From Pirellulales bacterium (GTDB lineage: Bacteria; Planctomycetota; Planctomycetia; Pirellulales; PALSA-1355), in NCBI GenBank assembly GCA_022844125.1, contig JALHMI010000006.1, positions 310,001-374,000 of the forward strand: DNA of 64,000 nt. Direction: 5' to 3'. Below the pieces are notes generated by a model. That model saw only the letters and a program-made list of their open reading frames with translations. It did not search any database and was not told the DNA's origin. This document shows, piece by piece, positions 43,074 through 51,001 of this stretch. Both the position numbers and the translations under genes were made by a program. Position 1 is the first letter of the stretch, and each line of letters starts with the position of its first letter.

Positions 43074-44414
43074 CTAAGGTCTGGCCTGTCGGCGGCGCAT
43101 CGAGGCGCGGCCCACAAGCAGCAGCATCCCAATGGCGGCCAGCGCGACCGTGCTCGGCTCGGGCACGGCCCTGAGCCGCACGTTGTCGAAGTTGACTTGC
43201 CCACGATTGAGCGTGGTAGTCGAAGTCGCCTGAAAGACGAAGTTCAGGGGCTGCAGAAGCTCCTCCGGCGTCAACAGACGTGTGTCCAGCACGATCGAGT
43301 TGTCGCGCGACCACGTGCCATCCGCCAAAGCCGAAAGTTGTACAAGCTGATAGGCCTCGCCCACCTGCTGCGAGAAATCCACCAGATCATCGCCCAGCGT
43401 GAAGAATGCCTTGACGGAAATGAAAGGATCCATGTCGTTATTCGGCAGGTTGCCGTTGTCGGTCAGGTCGCGGTTTCCTACGTCGAACGTGACGGTGTAC
43501 TGCATGTTGGGCTTCAGGCTCCCGCCAGCCAGGATCGTCTGATACATGCTTGCGGTGCCGTTCTCTACGTTGATGAACGCGGCATGAGATCCACCCGCGG
43601 CGTTCGGCTTGAATAGGGGGCCGGTCATCGTTTGCACGCTGGCGTAGTTGTTGGGAGTACCCGGCGCCACGCCAATCCATCCTTCTGCGCTGGGATCGGT
43701 GCTGATAGTGCCATTTTCGAAGCCGCCGTTTAGCAAGTCCGGCACATCAGTCCCAGCGATCGGGCGGCTCGCCACAATCTGTCCGCTGACGGTCATCATC
43801 AAGCCTGTCGAAGCCGTTCCGCTTCCTTGAAATGGAATGACGACACGATAGGAATTCCCCACGGTCGTAAAAGTGGCTGGACTCATTCCAACATTGCTGA
43901 GCTTTAACGAGTTCGTCGTCGTCGAGGATGATGGCCCCGTATCCTGGTAGCTGAACGTTTTCGTCAGGAAGGAAAGGTTGATTCCCGAAGGTGTCAAGAC
44001 TCCTCCCGGAGCAATTGTTAAGGGGCCGCTCGACAAAAAGATGTCCGTGGCTCCCAGCGTCGCGTATCCCGTGTTGTTGACGCCGAAGGCGTGATCGACC
44101 TGAATCGCATAGTCAGCCGACGTGTCGGCCGGAAGGAATGAACCGAGTTGTGGCGCGGTATACATACTGCTTCCGAGCAGGCGAATTTGATTAGCATCCG
44201 AAAGCAGGACGTCCAAGTGGCCTCCGTAATAGTTAGTTAGGCTCGAGCCCGGCTGCGCAACGATCGGCTGTGTGTTGTAGGTGCCCCCGATGGTGAGAAA
44301 CGAACTCGTGGGATCGACCACGAACGGCGCCGCCATCGCGGAAGGTGGAGCGAATGAATCTGTGGCCGTTGACAAGAATGTGGCAAACCAAAGCAGAAAG
44401 ACAGATCGGGGCAT
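43074..44414 (-). CDS. PEP-CTERM sorting domain protein with an N-terminal beta-rich region
   Basis: 446 residues. A signal peptide (MPRSVFLLWFATFLSTATDS) leads into a long Ser/Thr/Gly-rich beta region. Around residues 228-420 lies a jelly-roll-like carbohydrate-binding-type segment (LLNGGFENGT, GSHAAFINVENGTASMYQTI, TVTFDVGNRD, NFDNVRLR). The C-terminus is RAVPEPSTVALAAIGMLLLVGRASMRRRQARP, a complete PEP-CTERM tail. It is expected at the cell surface or matrix. It resembles the exported lectin-like PEP-CTERM proteins of exopolysaccharide producers. A good promoter lies about 190 bases upstream. Confidence 0.92.
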   Translation of the reverse strand: MPRSVFLLWFATFLSTATDSFAPPSAMAAPFVVDPTSSFLTIGGTYNTQPIVAQPGSSLTNYYGGHLDVLLSDANQIRLLGSSMYTAPQLGSFLPADTSADYAIQVDHAFGVNNTGYATLGATDIFLSSGPLTIAPGGVLTPSGINLSFLTKTFSYQDTGPSSSTTTNSLKLSNVGMSPATFTTVGNSYRVVIPFQGSGTASTGLMMTVSGQIVASRPIAGTDVPDLLNGGFENGTISTDPSAEGWIGVAPGTPNNYASVQTMTGPLFKPNAAGGSHAAFINVENGTASMYQTILAGGSLKPNMQYTVTFDVGNRDLTDNGNLPNNDMDPFISVKAFFTLGDDLVDFSQQVGEAYQLVQLSALADGTWSRDNSIVLDTRLLTPEELLQPLNFVFQATSTTTLNRGQVNFDNVRLRAVPEPSTVALAAIGMLLLVGRASMRRRQARP

Positions 44415-44824: not shown

Positions 44825-47800
44825 GTGACACGCCCGAGATCGCCGCGGGCGCCCTGGACGCTGGCAGCCGGAATCGCAACCGTGGAATACCTGTTTAATG
44901 CCCTGTTGGTGCTGGCGGTTGTGACCGTTGTGGGGCATGCGATCTGGGTTGCCCTCGCCAAGCTGTTCGGCCGTCCTTCGTACGAGAAACTGCCGCGCCG
45001 CTGCCCGCGCTGCGGGCTCGCGCTGATCGGCGAAACCTGCAATGTGTGTCATTGGCCCGTCGATCCCGGGCATGTGCGACCCAACGCGCGCGAAGCGCTC
45101 GGGCAGCTCTCAGCCCAAGTGGCGCGGCTCGAACAGCTCAAGATTCTCGATCCTCAGGCGCGGGCTTCATTGGAGGCCGTGATCGAAGCCGAACGAGCAC
45201 GCCGCACACCGCCCGTCGCCCGGCCGGTGATGAAAGCTGCCGAACCTGCGATCGCGGCCACGCTTATCGAGCCGCCCCCGATCAATCCTGCCGCGGTTCA
45301 TTCGGCACAGGCGACGCCGGCCGATCGTGTCGCAGAGTTCGTCGCGCGTCATACATCGACGGCCGTTCCGCCAGCCGACGTTGCGCCCCCGATGCAGTCC
45401 GCGCCGCCGGCCCCTCCGCGCGCAAGCTGGTCCGACTGGCTCGCCGGCTTCATGGAAGAGCGCAACATTCGCTGGGGCGAGCTCGTCGCCGGACTCCTGA
45501 TCGTGTGCTGCTCGATCGCGCTGGTGATCAGCTTCTGGTCCGCCATCGAGGCGCGCCCCTGGCTCAAATTCTTGCTTTTCAACGGCGCGACGGCTGCCAT
45601 CTTCGGCGCTGGCTTCTACTGCGAGCATCGCCTGCGCCTCCGCACCACGGCGCAGGGCATGCTCACGATCGGTTCGCTACTGGCTCCGCTCAACTTCCTG
45701 GCGATTGCGGCACTCTCGAGCGCGCCGGATGCTGGCAACCTGGTGACTATCGGGGCCGAAGGGCTCTCGGCGGCTTTCTTCGCGGCGCTCATCTACTTCG
45801 CCGGGCGCGTGCTTGTGCGGTGTGATGCCTGGTTGTTTACCGCCGGCGTGATGCTGCCGGCCCTGGCGAATCTGCTGGTTCGCCGCTTCATCCATCCCGG
45901 TGCATCGCTCCCGACGCTGGCCCTGGTCGCCGCCGCGCCGACCGCCGCTTACCTCGTGTCGAACCTTTGGTACCTGCGCCGCATTGAGCGGGCAGCCGAA
46001 CCGTCGGAATCCGATGCCAACGCGCTGTTCAAGTTTCTCGGCATCACCAGTTTCGCTGTCGTGCTGCCGCTGGCCCTTTTAGCCTACAAGACCGGCCATC
46101 CGATCCTCGCGCTCCGCCAGCTTCCGCTGATCACCGCGCTTGTCGGCTTTGTGCCGCTCTCCGCAGGACTGACGCTCTGGCAAAAGCTCGTCGATCGCGG
46201 CCTCAGCGGCTTGCGCACCGCCGGAACTGCGGTGGCTATCTTCGGTGCCGCTGTCTCGCTGGCAGGACTTGTCATCGGCTGGCCCGAGCCGAGCGCATTG
46301 CTGCCGGCCGCGGTTGCCGAGTTTGTGCTGCTCAGCTACCTGGCCTGGCGGTACGGAATGTCCGCGCTGCATCTGCCGGTGGGCTGGTGTCTGACGGCCG
46401 TGTGCCTGCTCGCGGCGCATCTGTTTGAAGGGCGAATCGTCTGGTCTGGCGAATCGGCCTCGGGCATGCTCGCGGCATTCGCCTGCGGCGAAACCGGCAT
46501 CCTGCTTGCGCCGCTGGTGGTACTCTATGCCGGACTGGCTGCGGTGTTCCGCCTGCGGGATCGTGCCGAGTGGCGTGCATTGGGCGGAGCCGCTCTCACG
46601 TTGATGACTGCCAGCGCGGCGCTGCTGGTGTGGTTTGGCTATGGCAACGCCGGAGTGCCGCTCGGCGCGGGCTGGATCTTGCTATTCTACGCCGCGGGCC
46701 TGCTCGCGTGGGGCATGCGATCCGAGCGCCGCATTCCGGCCTGGCTCGGCCTCGGCATGCTCCTGCTTGCGACCTGGCAGCTCGTGGTCTTTCGCTTCGG
46801 ACCGAGTCTCGCACTCGCGCGGGCCTGGTTTGACGCGCTGCTAGTCTTCGCCACGACCAGTGCGGCGCTGGGTTTGGTGGTTCGCCATCCGCGCGTCGCC
46901 GTGGCCAACAGCCCGCTGCGAAGCGCCGCGCTGCACGCCTCGCTGGTGGTGAGTGTGGTGGCGGTGGTGGGTGCGCTGCTACCGATGCCGCTGCTGATTG
47001 CGTGGAGTGCCTGGCGGCTGTTGTGGCTGGCCGTGCTGTGGGGAGTGATCGCCCTGGCGCTCAATCGCGCTCCGCTCGGGACCCTCGCTCAGGTGGCGCT
47101 CTCCGCGGCCGCGGGATTTGCCGTCGCGAGTGTCCTGCAGCACCAGCCATGGTTCGCAAGCTCGTCTCGCCCCTGGATCGATCCGCGGATGCTCGGATTC
47201 GCCGGTTTGGCCCTGGCGGGCGTGAACTTCCTATGGATCGCACTGCGTGCCCTGGCACGGCGTTACGAAGCGAGTTCAAACGAACTGCTCGTTCGCGCTG
47301 CCGCGCTGCTGCGATCGCCGTGGCTCTTCGTCGATCGTGCCGTCACCGGCGGGTTGGTCGCGCTGCTCGTGCTGCTCTCGGCCGCCGCAGTGCTGCCGGG
47401 CACGCTGTTGGAGATCATGCCCGCAAGCGCGTCGGCGCGGGACTTCGCCGGCGATTGGCTGCATCTCGGTTTTGACTACACGCTGGCGGGGCAGGGGGGC
47501 ACCTGGCTGCTCGCGGCTGCGCTGATCGCGTTGGTACTGGTCACGCTCCGCCAGACCGCCAATCGCGGGTGGCTGTATGTGCTGGTGCTGACGATCGGTG
47601 CGCTGGCGCCGCTTTCCGCGGCAAGGTTCGACAGCGTTGGCGCTGTCGCCAGCGCGCTCGTCTGGAGCTCGACGATCTTCCTGGCCAGCGCGTCGATCAC
47701 GGTCTGGTGCCGCGAGCCAATAGCGCGCTTGGCCGGGCGGTTGGGTTTTGAAGGCTGGCCGCCGGAGCTCGGCGTCCGGCGTGACCTGACGATCCTCGTC

Positions 47801-50800
47801 CTGCTGATCGGACTTGTGGTTCCGCTCGTGCTTGGCCTGGCCATCTGTGCGCAAGGTCTCGGCCGCGCCGGCACGATACCGCACCTATTGCCGTACTATC
47901 TCGTAGCCGCGGTCGTCTCGACGATGCTGGCCGCGGTGCTCTGGGTGAGCGGCTGGTTCGATGGCGACGGCGCCAGCGGACGCACGAACCTGCCGCTGGC
48001 CACGCCTGCCCTCGCGATGCTGCTCGGCGTGATTCCACTCGTCGCCATGGTCATGTATCACATCGCAGTGGCGCTCGTAGCCAGCCCAATCCGCGGGCCC
48101 GATCCCGCGTCGATCTTTGGGCGGCTGGGCTATCCGCTGAACTACGGCGGGCCGATTGCGATCGTCGCGATCACGCTGGTCGGTTACGCCCTTCGCCAGC
48201 GCTCCGGCAGCTTCGCGCTCGCCGCGAGCTTGATCACCTGTCTAACAATGTGCGTCAGTTGGCTTACGGCAGCCGATCCGATTCTGATCGCCGACACGAG
48301 CACTTGGATTCATCTCGTCCAACTCATCGCCATCGTGGCGGCGCTGTTCACGCTCGGCTGGATTTGGCTGGTAGCTTGGGATCGGCGCAGCGACGGGCGT
48401 TACGGTTATGTCGTGGGCGGACCCTTCTTTGACGTGCAGTCGATGATCGCTCCGGCGCTCGCGGCTCTGCTCGTCGGCTGGACCTGGCTGCGGCTGTTCA
48501 CGCGGCCAGCGCCACAATTCGGCGCAGTCGTTCCGCCCGAGTTTGCAGACGCTTTTGGCGTCGCCACGCTGGCGATCGTGATCCTCGCCGTGTGGCTGAC
48601 GGCGACCGCACTCGCGCGACCGCTCAGTCGGCTGGCCATCAGTTCGCTGCTGGTTACGACAGCCACCGTGGTTGCCGCCATCGCCGCCCGCTGGGACGTG
48701 GGCAACTGGCTCGCCTTTCGCACGCTGTTCGTCGGCCACGCGATCACTGCAGCGGTGCTACTGGCGCTGGCCTGGCGCGAGAGGAAGGGGACGGGAGTCT
48801 TTTCCGCACACAGCTCTCCGCCCGCCGGACAGTTCTGGCCAGCGCTGCAGACGGCCGTGCTGTTCCTGCTTGCGGTGGTTCTGTTCCAGCAGTTTCCCTG
48901 GTGGTCGATCGCCGGTTGGGCCCTTTGTGGAATCGTGTATTCGCCACTACAGTCGATGATCTACCAGCGACGCGGCTACCTCTATGCCGCGTCACTGCTC
49001 ATCAACATTGCGGGCCTCGCCGCCGCCGATCAGCTCAACCTTGTGCCCGATCTGCCTGAGTTTGTTTATTGGAGCATTGCACTGCTGGCACTGCCGGTGC
49101 CGGCCTGGCTGGTGATCGAACAGCGTGCGATTCGCCCCCGCTCTTTCGCGGGTTTGAATTTCCCGCCGGCCCATCGCGTCGCCGCCTGGTTCGCCGCAGG
49201 GTTGCTCGTGCTTGCCGTTGTGAGTGAACTTTCCGCGGACGTCATCGGTGCGAGCGGCACGGTTTCGCTGGCCGGTGTGAGCTGGCTTGCGCTGAGCGTG
49301 GTGTTCATCGCCTCCGCCAGCTTGCTGTGGGATGAGCGCGGCCGAGACGCCTTCGGCCTGCTGTACCTGGTTGGCCTCACCGCTTGCGGCATGCTGGTGG
49401 CCGCGTTCGATCTCACGCCGCCGTGGCTCCTGTGGACCGGCGGGATGGTGCTGGCTGCATACTCTCTGGCCACGAGCACGCTGTGGAGCTTCCGTGCAAG
49501 GCTGGCGGACGTGGCGAGCGCGGTGCGCATTCCGCGGCACGAATCGCACGGTCATGCCCAACTCGCGTGGCTTGTTCCGGCAAACATTTTTCTCATCGGC
49601 GGCGTGATCCTGATCGCGTTCCTGGTGCTGATGACGAGCGCCCGCGTCGATCTGCGAATCCTGATCGCGCAGGCCACGCTCGTGCAGGTCGCCAGCCTGG
49701 CGCTGCTGGCGCGCGGCGAGCGTCGAGACGCGATCCAGCATGCGGCGCTTACCGTGGGGGCAATCGGCGCGGTGTTTTTCGGTTGGGCGTGGCTCGTGCC
49801 CGGCGTAACGTTCACGCTGCTGCACGCCTTGATCGTGCTGGCCGCGGCTACCGTCATCGTCGGTGCGTTCTACGGTCTGGGACTGGTGAAGCTGCTCGGC
49901 GAGGAAAGCCCCTGGCTCAGCGCCGCGCGTCGTTTGCTGCCACTGCTGGTGGCGGTCAGCCTCGGGGCGATCCTCGCCTCGCTCGGCATCGAACTCTATC
50001 AGTTCATCGTCGAAGGCGAAGTGCGCATCGCGATGTTCGCCACGGTCCTGCTCGGGGCCACGATGGTCGCGATTACCGTGGCCGCGCTGGCCGCGGCGAT
50101 CCTGCCCGGGCGCGATCCGCTGGCCCTCAGTGAGCGCGGCCGCGCGGTGTACGTCTATGCGGCCGAGATCCTGCTGGCGCTGTTGTTTGTTCATATTCGC
50201 GTCACGTTCCCCTGGCTGTTTCGTGGGTTCTTCCAGCAGTATTGGCCGCTGATCGTGATGGCCATCGCTTTCCTCGGCGTCGGGGCAGGCGAACTCTTCC
50301 GCCGCCGCCAGGTGCATGTCCTCTCGCGGCCGCTGGAAAACACCGGCGTAATGCTCCCTGTGCTGCCGGTGTTGGGCTTCTGGTTCGTGGAGTCGCAGGT
50401 CGACTACTCGCTGCTCCTGGTGGGCGTGGGTCTGTTGTATGCGACGCTCTCGATCGCACGGCGCTCGTTCGGTTTCGGCGTGCTGGCGGCGCTGGCGGCC
50501 AACGGCGGCTTGTGGTACTTCCTCGGTCATCAAGGGGGCTGGGGCTTTCTGCGTCATCCGCAGGTCTGGATGATCCCGCCCGCCGTGTGCGTGCTGGCGG
50601 CAGCGTATCTCAACCGAAGGCAACTCAATGACGCACAGATGACAACGATCCGCTACGCGAGCTCGATGGCGATTTATCTCTCTTCGACCGCCGACATCTT
50701 CGTCAACGGCGTGGCCAATGCTCCCTGGCTGCCGGGCGTTCTCGCGGGCCTCTCGGTGCTGGGCATTTTCGCCGGCATCATCCTGCGGGTGCGAGCCTTC

Positions 50801-51001
50801 CTGCTGCTGGGCACCGGTTTTCTCGCGCTCGCCATGTTCACGGTCATCTGGTACGCGGCCGTCGATCTGGAGCAGACCTGGATCTGGTGGGCCTGCGGCA
50901 TCCTGCTGGGCCTCGCGATCCTGCTGCTGCTCGCCTTCTTCGAAAAGCGCCGCCAGGACATTCACGAGATGCTCGATCGATTGAAGCAGTGGGAAGGGTG
51001 A
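44825..51001 (+). CDS. Giant polytopic membrane protein with N-terminal zinc ribbon
   Basis: 2058 residues from the first GTG; a GTG at 44882 (start VEYLFNALL) is an equally plausible start and would give a protein opening with its first membrane helix. Residues ~21-45 are a membrane helix, followed by a zinc ribbon C60-PRC63-...-C72-NVC75, a Pro/Ala-rich cytosolic linker (~80-205) with a short coiled segment, then from ~215 to the end roughly fifty hydrophobic helices of Leu/Ala/Val type with short basic loops, ending with a charged helix (EKRRQDIHEMLDRLKQWEG). The start of this region (EERNIRWGELVAGLLIVCCSIALVISFW) resembles the multi-span DUF2339/DUF2157-type proteins. No enzyme motif is visible. 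Function unknown. It ends 4 bases before a convergent gene. Confidence 0.85.
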   Translation: MTRPRSPRAPWTLAAGIATVEYLFNALLVLAVVTVVGHAIWVALAKLFGRPSYEKLPRRCPRCGLALIGETCNVCHWPVDPGHVRPNAREALGQLSAQVARLEQLKILDPQARASLEAVIEAERARRTPPVARPVMKAAEPAIAATLIEPPPINPAAVHSAQATPADRVAEFVARHTSTAVPPADVAPPMQSAPPAPPRASWSDWLAGFMEERNIRWGELVAGLLIVCCSIALVISFWSAIEARPWLKFLLFNGATAAIFGAGFYCEHRLRLRTTAQGMLTIGSLLAPLNFLAIAALSSAPDAGNLVTIGAEGLSAAFFAALIYFAGRVLVRCDAWLFTAGVMLPALANLLVRRFIHPGASLPTLALVAAAPTAAYLVSNLWYLRRIERAAEPSESDANALFKFLGITSFAVVLPLALLAYKTGHPILALRQLPLITALVGFVPLSAGLTLWQKLVDRGLSGLRTAGTAVAIFGAAVSLAGLVIGWPEPSALLPAAVAEFVLLSYLAWRYGMSALHLPVGWCLTAVCLLAAHLFEGRIVWSGESASGMLAAFACGETGILLAPLVVLYAGLAAVFRLRDRAEWRALGGAALTLMTASAALLVWFGYGNAGVPLGAGWILLFYAAGLLAWGMRSERRIPAWLGLGMLLLATWQLVVFRFGPSLALARAWFDALLVFATTSAALGLVVRHPRVAVANSPLRSAALHASLVVSVVAVVGALLPMPLLIAWSAWRLLWLAVLWGVIALALNRAPLGTLAQVALSAAAGFAVASVLQHQPWFASSSRPWIDPRMLGFAGLALAGVNFLWIALRALARRYEASSNELLVRAAALLRSPWLFVDRAVTGGLVALLVLLSAAAVLPGTLLEIMPASASARDFAGDWLHLGFDYTLAGQGGTWLLAAALIALVLVTLRQTANRGWLYVLVLTIGALAPLSAARFDSVGAVASALVWSSTIFLASASITVWCREPIARLAGRLGFEGWPPELGVRRDLTILVLLIGLVVPLVLGLAICAQGLGRAGTIPHLLPYYLVAAVVSTMLAAVLWVSGWFDGDGASGRTNLPLATPALAMLLGVIPLVAMVMYHIAVALVASPIRGPDPASIFGRLGYPLNYGGPIAIVAITLVGYALRQRSGSFALAASLITCLTMCVSWLTAADPILIADTSTWIHLVQLIAIVAALFTLGWIWLVAWDRRSDGRYGYVVGGPFFDVQSMIAPALAALLVGWTWLRLFTRPAPQFGAVVPPEFADAFGVATLAIVILAVWLTATALARPLSRLAISSLLVTTATVVAAIAARWDVGNWLAFRTLFVGHAITAAVLLALAWRERKGTGVFSAHSSPPAGQFWPALQTAVLFLLAVVLFQQFPWWSIAGWALCGIVYSPLQSMIYQRRGYLYAASLLINIAGLAAADQLNLVPDLPEFVYWSIALLALPVPAWLVIEQRAIRPRSFAGLNFPPAHRVAAWFAAGLLVLAVVSELSADVIGASGTVSLAGVSWLALSVVFIASASLLWDERGRDAFGLLYLVGLTACGMLVAAFDLTPPWLLWTGGMVLAAYSLATSTLWSFRARLADVASAVRIPRHESHGHAQLAWLVPANIFLIGGVILIAFLVLMTSARVDLRILIAQATLVQVASLALLARGERRDAIQHAALTVGAIGAVFFGWAWLVPGVTFTLLHALIVLAAATVIVGAFYGLGLVKLLGEESPWLSAARRLLPLLVAVSLGAILASLGIELYQFIVEGEVRIAMFATVLLGATMVAITVAALAAAILPGRDPLALSERGRAVYVYAAEILLALLFVHIRVTFPWLFRGFFQQYWPLIVMAIAFLGVGAGELFRRRQVHVLSRPLENTGVMLPVLPVLGFWFVESQVDYSLLLVGVGLLYATLSIARRSFGFGVLAALAANGGLWYFLGHQGGWGFLRHPQVWMIPPAVCVLAAAYLNRRQLNDAQMTTIRYASSMAIYLSSTADIFVNGVANAPWLPGVLAGLSVLGIFAGIILRVRAFLLLGTGFLALAMFTVIWYAAVDLEQTWIWWACGILLGLAILLLLAFFEKRRQDIHEMLDRLKQWEG

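Follow-up and report, generated by a model that had tools for sequence, protein, structure and literature searches.

Analysis of a 64,000-nucleotide stretch of a Pirellulales bacterium genome (assembly GCA_022844125.1, contig JALHMI010000006.1, positions 310,001 to 374,000, hereafter the window) showed a gene coding for a giant protein of the inner membrane. The family of this protein is very probably a diverged and enlarged relative of the actinobacterial membrane proteins that carry the SCO7613 C-terminal domain, and it is no stand-alone planctomycete invention. The favoured reading of its function, to which a probability of roughly 0.4 is given, is that a giant, diverged protein of the SCO7613 type fills the niche of the DUF2339 protein Arc3A in membrane-lipid repair. 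The family was found described nowhere that could be recognised in a literature search whose coverage lay mostly outside subscription journals.

The open reading frame (ORF) on the + strand contained 2058 open codons with no internal stop, and its guanine-plus-cytosine (GC) content at the three codon positions (0.69, 0.51 and 0.80) was as expected of a genuine gene with high GC. Its nearest relatives, of the same family, were 44-52% identical over long stretches and were likewise open and free of stops. The large + strand ORF proposed in the initial annotation was thus confirmed as real and correctly read. Relatives started with MEYI, VEVL, MEYF or VEAI at the equivalent of V20 of the window ORF; the start was therefore placed at GTG 44882 rather than 44825, and the protein most probably has 2039 amino acids. 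Residues are numbered on the 2039-residue reading unless stated, and 19 is added for the 2058-residue reading. The gene was present as a single copy in the 6.4-Mb genome. A 657-residue antisense frame at 48992-50965 on the - strand, for which no support was seen, is probably a GC-rich shadow ORF. The features of the gene are as follows.

44825-51001, + strand: ORF of 2058 residues from GTG, open throughout
44882-51001, + strand: probable real gene of 2039 residues, from the GTG at V20, by the start position of relatives
44885-44968, + strand: first transmembrane helix, residues 2-29, by the AlphaFold2 helix list of the N-terminal half and hydropathy
45002-45049, + strand: four-cysteine zinc ribbon (C41, C44, C53, C56), by sequence and alignment, with Pfam DZR at E 0.068, below cut-off
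45086-45205, + strand: two-helix hairpin, residues 69-108, followed by a proline- and alanine-rich linker, by the AlphaFold2 model
45473-45715, + strand: conserved N-terminal transmembrane module (FMEERNIRWGE..LLIVCCS..), DUF2157-like, by DUF2157 matches and invariant residues
45473-50947, + strand: 57 transmembrane helices in an array that spans residues 198-2022, in the AlphaFold2 models one hairpin after another
50138-50977, + strand: C-terminal domain at residues 1753-2032, with homology to SCO7613_CTERM by profile-profile comparison
50555-50578, + strand: core motif HPQxWxIP at residues 1892-1899, whose H, P, Q, W and final P are the same in all 57 aligned members

The relationship to SCO7613_CTERM (NF047321) was revealed by profile-profile comparison with 27 positive proteins of other Planctomycetota, a set from which three giant-family members were left out; the match had an E-value of 1.5e-22 over 268 columns, and the reversed control gave 0.46. 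The NF047321 model matched the C-terminal domains of 17 of the 57 members, with a best E-value of 2.7e-13. Ten domains scanned singly gave 50 bits for L090 and 40.1 bits for L125, the curated cut-off being 45 bits, and the other eight produced no SCO7613_CTERM match. The homologous transmembrane domain extended over nearly the whole 188-position model (3-185 in L125 and 7-181 in L090), and in the window protein it sits at the C-terminus of a 58-helix protein (1753-2032 of 2039), in agreement with the position of the named domain. The window protein itself had no match to NF047321 at the curated cut-off; because its own score was nil while L090 reached 50 bits, it was regarded as a diverged relative and not as a named member. 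Proteins of both groups are polytopic membrane proteins that differ in size, SCO7613 being about 82 kDa (PMC8313934) against 2039 residues for the window protein. The model was found in 42 of 294 Planctomycetota genomes at E 0.001, and 7 were over the cut-off. The SCO7613_CTERM membrane proteins of other Planctomycetota (L132-L161) were shorter than the giant protein, with open frames often of 1200-1800 residues.

Searches against other known families returned no Pfam or NCBIfam family for the window protein at E 10 and nothing in PADLOC at E 1, which agrees with the initial annotation that no transport or enzyme motif is visible. The scan of a 14-member alignment at E 1 showed just a weak zinc ribbon and scattered chance matches, and a sequence-profile search of the PDB gave nothing credible. 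The best PDB profile match, pannexin-2 (E 0.0036), was rejected, as it covered N-terminal positions 9-206 of the profile, which are mostly linker.

The single window protein as query gave no matches in the genome collection. With the 14-member alignment as query, 124 encoding stretches were obtained among 136 pattern matches, and 80 were kept, corresponding to 76 loci. These loci contained 57 full-length ORFs, which together with the window protein and one more ranged from 1635 to 2459 residues (median 2055). The hosts were Planctomycetota (Pirellulales and Rhodopirellula, Gimesia, Gemmatales, Phycisphaerae) and Acidobacteriota (Blastocatellia, Pyrinomonadaceae, gp4). The distribution was patchy, with the family in 22 of 57 related genomes (the kin) and in 18 of 199 genomes across Planctomycetota by the C-terminal profile at E 1e-5. 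A quick tree placed seven Blastocatellia members (L059, L062, L063, L065, L069, L097, L101) inside the mainly planctomycete set with 98% support, and this nesting suggests transfer of the gene between Planctomycetota and Acidobacteriota. One member of 2459 residues (L043/L114) has extra sequence ahead of the transmembrane array, and TPR matches (E 0.02) were seen in one of 14 scanned members, probably the same one.

Conservation was concentrated at both ends of the protein: the DUF2157-like module near the N-terminus and the final ~300 residues. Invariant over 57 rows were G199, E200, G204, I207, F233 and P269 in the N-terminal half, and twelve in the last 340 residues, between 1788 and 2021 (W1788, N1874, H1892, P1893, Q1894, W1896, P1899, S1935, G1965, F1980, G2010 and E2021), five of which (H1892, P1893, Q1894, W1896 and P1899) form the HPQxWxIP motif. 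In the middle ~1450 residues the helices (about 50) were kept with few conserved columns. The length of the relatives, near 2000 residues, together with the invariant C-terminal residues indicates that the protein is under selection. The zinc-ribbon pattern was carried by only 30 of 59 members, and the ribbon is thus not the functional core.

The evidence for the function comes from co-occurrence with DUF2339, and the genome sets used for it overlap in part, so that their counts are not to be summed. Among the 57 kin, DUF2339 was found in 10 genomes and the giant family in 22, with an overlap of 0 against 3.9 expected (P 0.004); none of the 22 carriers had DUF2339, as against 10 of the 35 non-carriers. 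Across the 199 Planctomycetota genomes, DUF2339 was found in 53 and the giant family in 18, again with an overlap of 0 (P 0.003; 0 of 18 carriers against 53 of 181 non-carriers). When genomes with either SCO7613_CTERM or the giant family were taken together, 1 of 47 (G319) had DUF2339, compared with 53 of 199 (Fisher P 4e-5, some genomes standing in both rows). Five families (f2, f3, f5, f13 and f21) had both the giant family and DUF2339, each in different genomes. As a control, the polytopic YfhO was present in 23 of the 57 genomes, and 11 of the 22 carriers had it against 8.9 expected, which is near chance. True DUF2157 proteins exceeded the cut-off in 5 of the 57 genomes, none of them a carrier (0 of 22), and two of the five shared a genome with DUF2339. 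The giant family and DUF2339 are therefore almost mutually exclusive in Planctomycetota, which is a new observation here.

At the level of sequence, the DUF2157 profile (PF09925) matched the window protein at 45482-45700 with an E-value of 0.0575 (15.1 bits). Matches were also obtained in five giant-family genomes (G012, G015, G038, G043, G052; E 5e-5 to 9e-4), where model positions 40-128 aligned to the first conserved transmembrane module, and in 4 of 9 scanned N-termini of the family (E 0.001 to 0.0098). The helical start of the model remained unmatched in the giant family, and the gathering score of 32.4 bits was not reached by the scanned members, the best of which had 25.1 bits. DUF2339 (PF10101) showed no Pfam match to the window protein (E 10) or to 14 members (E 1), and the genome of the window had 0 DUF2339 matches at E 1e-5. 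Proteins of the DUF2339/Arc3A type (PA5114) are, like the giant family, very large many-helix proteins without catalytic motifs, and at least one of them, the DUF2339 ORF of G007, has a DUF2157-like N-terminal module (E 1.2e-4). They differ in having another C-terminal domain and, in Planctomycetota, ORFs mostly of 600-1300 residues.

In Pseudomonas aeruginosa, Arc3A represents DUF2339; it is predicted to have 35 helices and lacks catalytic residues, and in its absence the delivery of a phospholipase toxin leads to build-up of lysophosphatidylethanolamine and monolysocardiolipin (PMC8926400). The same source states that several Arc3A relatives from other bacteria complement the arc3A defect, and protection against lipase by Arc3A was confirmed in PMC12663445. 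P. protegens also served in the published Arc3A work. The giant family and DUF2339 almost never share a genome though both are scattered through the same Planctomycetota families, and for this reason an Arc3A-like niche is inferred for the giant family. The most economical reading, put forward tentatively as a possibility that falls somewhat short of an even chance, would be that the giant family does the job of Arc3A in genomes without Arc3A and protects the membrane from lysophospholipids and other damaged lipids. By way of speculation, lipids with a single tail could collect along the long hairpin array, which would present a wide surface to the lipid, and the conserved modules at either end might bind these lipids or deliver them for reacylation or turnover. 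As half of the family has no ribbon, the ribbon and hairpin on the cytosolic side would then serve as an adaptor for partners and not as a working part. The most specific version, a single-chain transmembrane alpha-solenoid of ~28 stacked hairpins acting as a lipid corral that gathers lysophospholipids in the inner membrane, and replacing Arc3A (DUF2339) in Planctomycetota by non-orthologous or very remote substitution, is rather unlikely as a whole.

Several results weigh against the Arc3A-like reading. The exclusion was not absolute: G319, which is SCO7613-positive, carries DUF2339, as do 5 of 50 carriers in GTDB 220, made up of 2 of 41 Planctomycetota (L087 and L125) and 3 of 9 Blastocatellia (L069, L082 and L084). 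The co-occurrence counts ignore phylogeny and many of the genomes are fragmentary. Many Planctomycetota have neither family, so the niche is not essential. Direct homology of the giant family to DUF2339 is unproven; the whole profile of the family matched DUF2339 at E 3.5e-10 over 82 columns, and narrower probes gave a probability of 19% or less. The gene-context comparison revealed no neighbour or partner gene conserved family-wide. The sole mutant of the SCO7613 type that was found makes less polyhydroxyalkanoate, and the abstract, results and discussion of PMC8313934 report no membrane phenotype for it.

For the predicted structure, AlphaFold2 was run on two halves separately with 57 aligned sequences each, and both halves were confident (mean pLDDT, the predicted local distance difference test, 84.4 and 84.6; predicted template modelling score 0.66 and 0.70). 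The two halves contained 58 helices, hand-picked from the helix lists, and hydropathy gave 58 segments with the threshold set to 1.1 and 53 with it set to 1.4. The initial annotation had counted about fifty helices, which was right as to a many-helix protein and slightly low as to the number. Its four-cysteine N-terminal zinc ribbon was recovered at residues 60, 63, 72 and 75 of the 2058-residue numbering, and the almost wholly hydrophobic part, which it had placed after residue 215, started at 217 in the same numbering. In the N-terminal half, the hairpin helices 69-85 and 91-108 had a pLDDT of about 90, and the proline- and alanine-rich linker mostly <50. The hairpin of residues 69-108 presumably resembles SHOCT-like hairpins.

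Foldseek against the PDB produced no match with E <= 0.001, whichever half was used. The best VIA-align matches were 8gel_A for the N-terminal half (Z 13.1, root-mean-square deviation 7.6 over 345 residues) and 7rdr_A for the C-terminal half (Z 11.1, deviation 11.9 over 417 residues). VIA-align only re-ranks the candidates of Foldseek, and its documentation warns that scores in this range can reflect no more than an arrangement shared by many proteins. The top geometric matches were designed helical repeats and alpha-solenoids. The matches to soluble alpha-solenoids were not read as kinship, as E was above 0.001 and Z at most 13.1, in keeping with a common helical-repeat arrangement.

The length of the protein had been tentatively ascribed in the initial annotation to internal duplication, and this stood in part. 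The profile of the N-terminal half aligned with that of the C-terminal half at E 1.2e-7 (94%), compared with E 0.0043 (8%) for the reversed control, and the local modules scored low. Comparisons of short modules were mostly of low probability, the best being 82% for residues 1070-1185 against 1338-1422, and self-comparison of the whole profile listed no off-diagonal match. Any repeat must thus be old and degenerate, and an old, degenerate hairpin repeat is likely, not proven. A four-fold repeat of ~450 residues, suggested by DUF2339 C-terminal probes at 591, 1080, 1587 and 1948, was set aside as unproven (probabilities of 1-19%, reversed control 0.6%), and the joining of two Arc3A-type units end to end was also weighed and is not claimed.

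Four other functions were weighed against the Arc3A-like niche. A sensor of membrane stress or an assembly platform would bring in partners from the cytosol through the ribbon and hairpin and monitor the lipid state with its membrane part, as in LiaF-type DUF2157 phage-shock proteins. The DUF2157-like N-terminal module suits such a role, and PMC11237479 ties DUF2157, zinc ribbons and SHOCT-like hairpins to envelope-stress systems. It is an unlikely function given that 29 of 59 members have no ribbon pattern, that the gene neighbourhoods showed no regulator conserved throughout the family and that 58 helices are far above the need of a sensor. The dozens of helices could instead line one or more permeation paths, so that the protein would carry or conduct glycerol, say, or another small precursor as a transporter or channel, with the C-terminal domain as gate. 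Deletion of SCO7613 in Streptomyces coelicolor is viable and lowers polyhydroxyalkanoate, an effect judged probably indirect by its authors, who raised glycerol transport as a question (PMC8313934). The absence of any transporter family at E 10 in Pfam and NCBIfam, the lack of a Foldseek hit in the PDB with E <= 0.001 from the two halves, a ~1450-residue middle with almost no conserved columns, unlike a substrate path, and the lack of a binding-protein or ATPase gene accompanying the giant gene family-wide make transport quite unlikely. No known transporter was prominent in the Foldseek and VIA-align lists, which alone do not exclude one.

The twelve invariant residues within 1788-2021, several of them polar, could also belong to an enzyme embedded in the membrane that works on lipids or on substrates linked to them, its active site being H1892, Q1894, W1896, S1935 and E2021; however, most of them are W, P, G or F, a composition typical of structural motifs, and the profile searches showed no known catalytic motif or enzyme family, so that this function is improbable. 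The initial annotation had proposed that the protein may organise the unusual membranes of the planctomycete, which would mean shaping invaginations or large membrane domains. Its very large membrane-embedded form, the hairpin model and the geometric matches to helical repeats and alpha-solenoids would suit such a structural role, yet the patchy occurrence (18 of 199 genomes of the phylum and 22 of 57 kin), the presence of the family in Blastocatellia, a C-terminal domain common to a Streptomyces family and a ribbon in 30 of 59 members speak against it. A structural organiser specific to planctomycete membranes is very improbable. What held of the earlier interpretation is a very large polytopic protein with an N-terminal zinc ribbon, and neither the sequence searches nor the structure search named there as the refuting check (no Foldseek PDB match at E <= 0.001) turned up a known transporter or glycosyltransferase; duplication held in part, and the organiser role was not supported.

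The neighbouring genes were rejected as a clue to function, since they showed only lineage synteny. The commonest neighbour cluster, which we take to be sulfatases, was present in 14 loci at scattered distances from the giant gene. Gimesia-type loci (L077, L078, L081, L085) shared their neighbours as local synteny, including a gene convergent with the giant gene that is presumably a BipA/TypA-like GTPase. In 7 of 11 Blastocatellia loci (L059, L063, L065, L069, L082, L084, L101), a gene that presumably codes for an adenosine monophosphate-binding ligase lay directly upstream on the opposite strand in divergent orientation, and it is a feature of the Blastocatellia lineage. Genes for aas adjoin arc3 in many bacteria (PMC8926400); the Blastocatellia ligase may or may not be an Aas. 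In the window, a divergent gene upstream of the giant gene (43074-44414, - strand) coded for an HpiC1-like domain and a PEP-CTERM sorting signal.

The giant protein, formerly without a family, now stands beside SCO7613_CTERM, DUF2157 and, by occurrence, DUF2339, all of them membrane proteins that have hardly been characterised. Should the exclusion of DUF2339 reflect a shared function, it would make the role of these proteins directly testable. If the Arc3A-like reading is true, a defence against lipid damage so far known from Pseudomonas under attack by rival bacteria would extend to environmental phyla.

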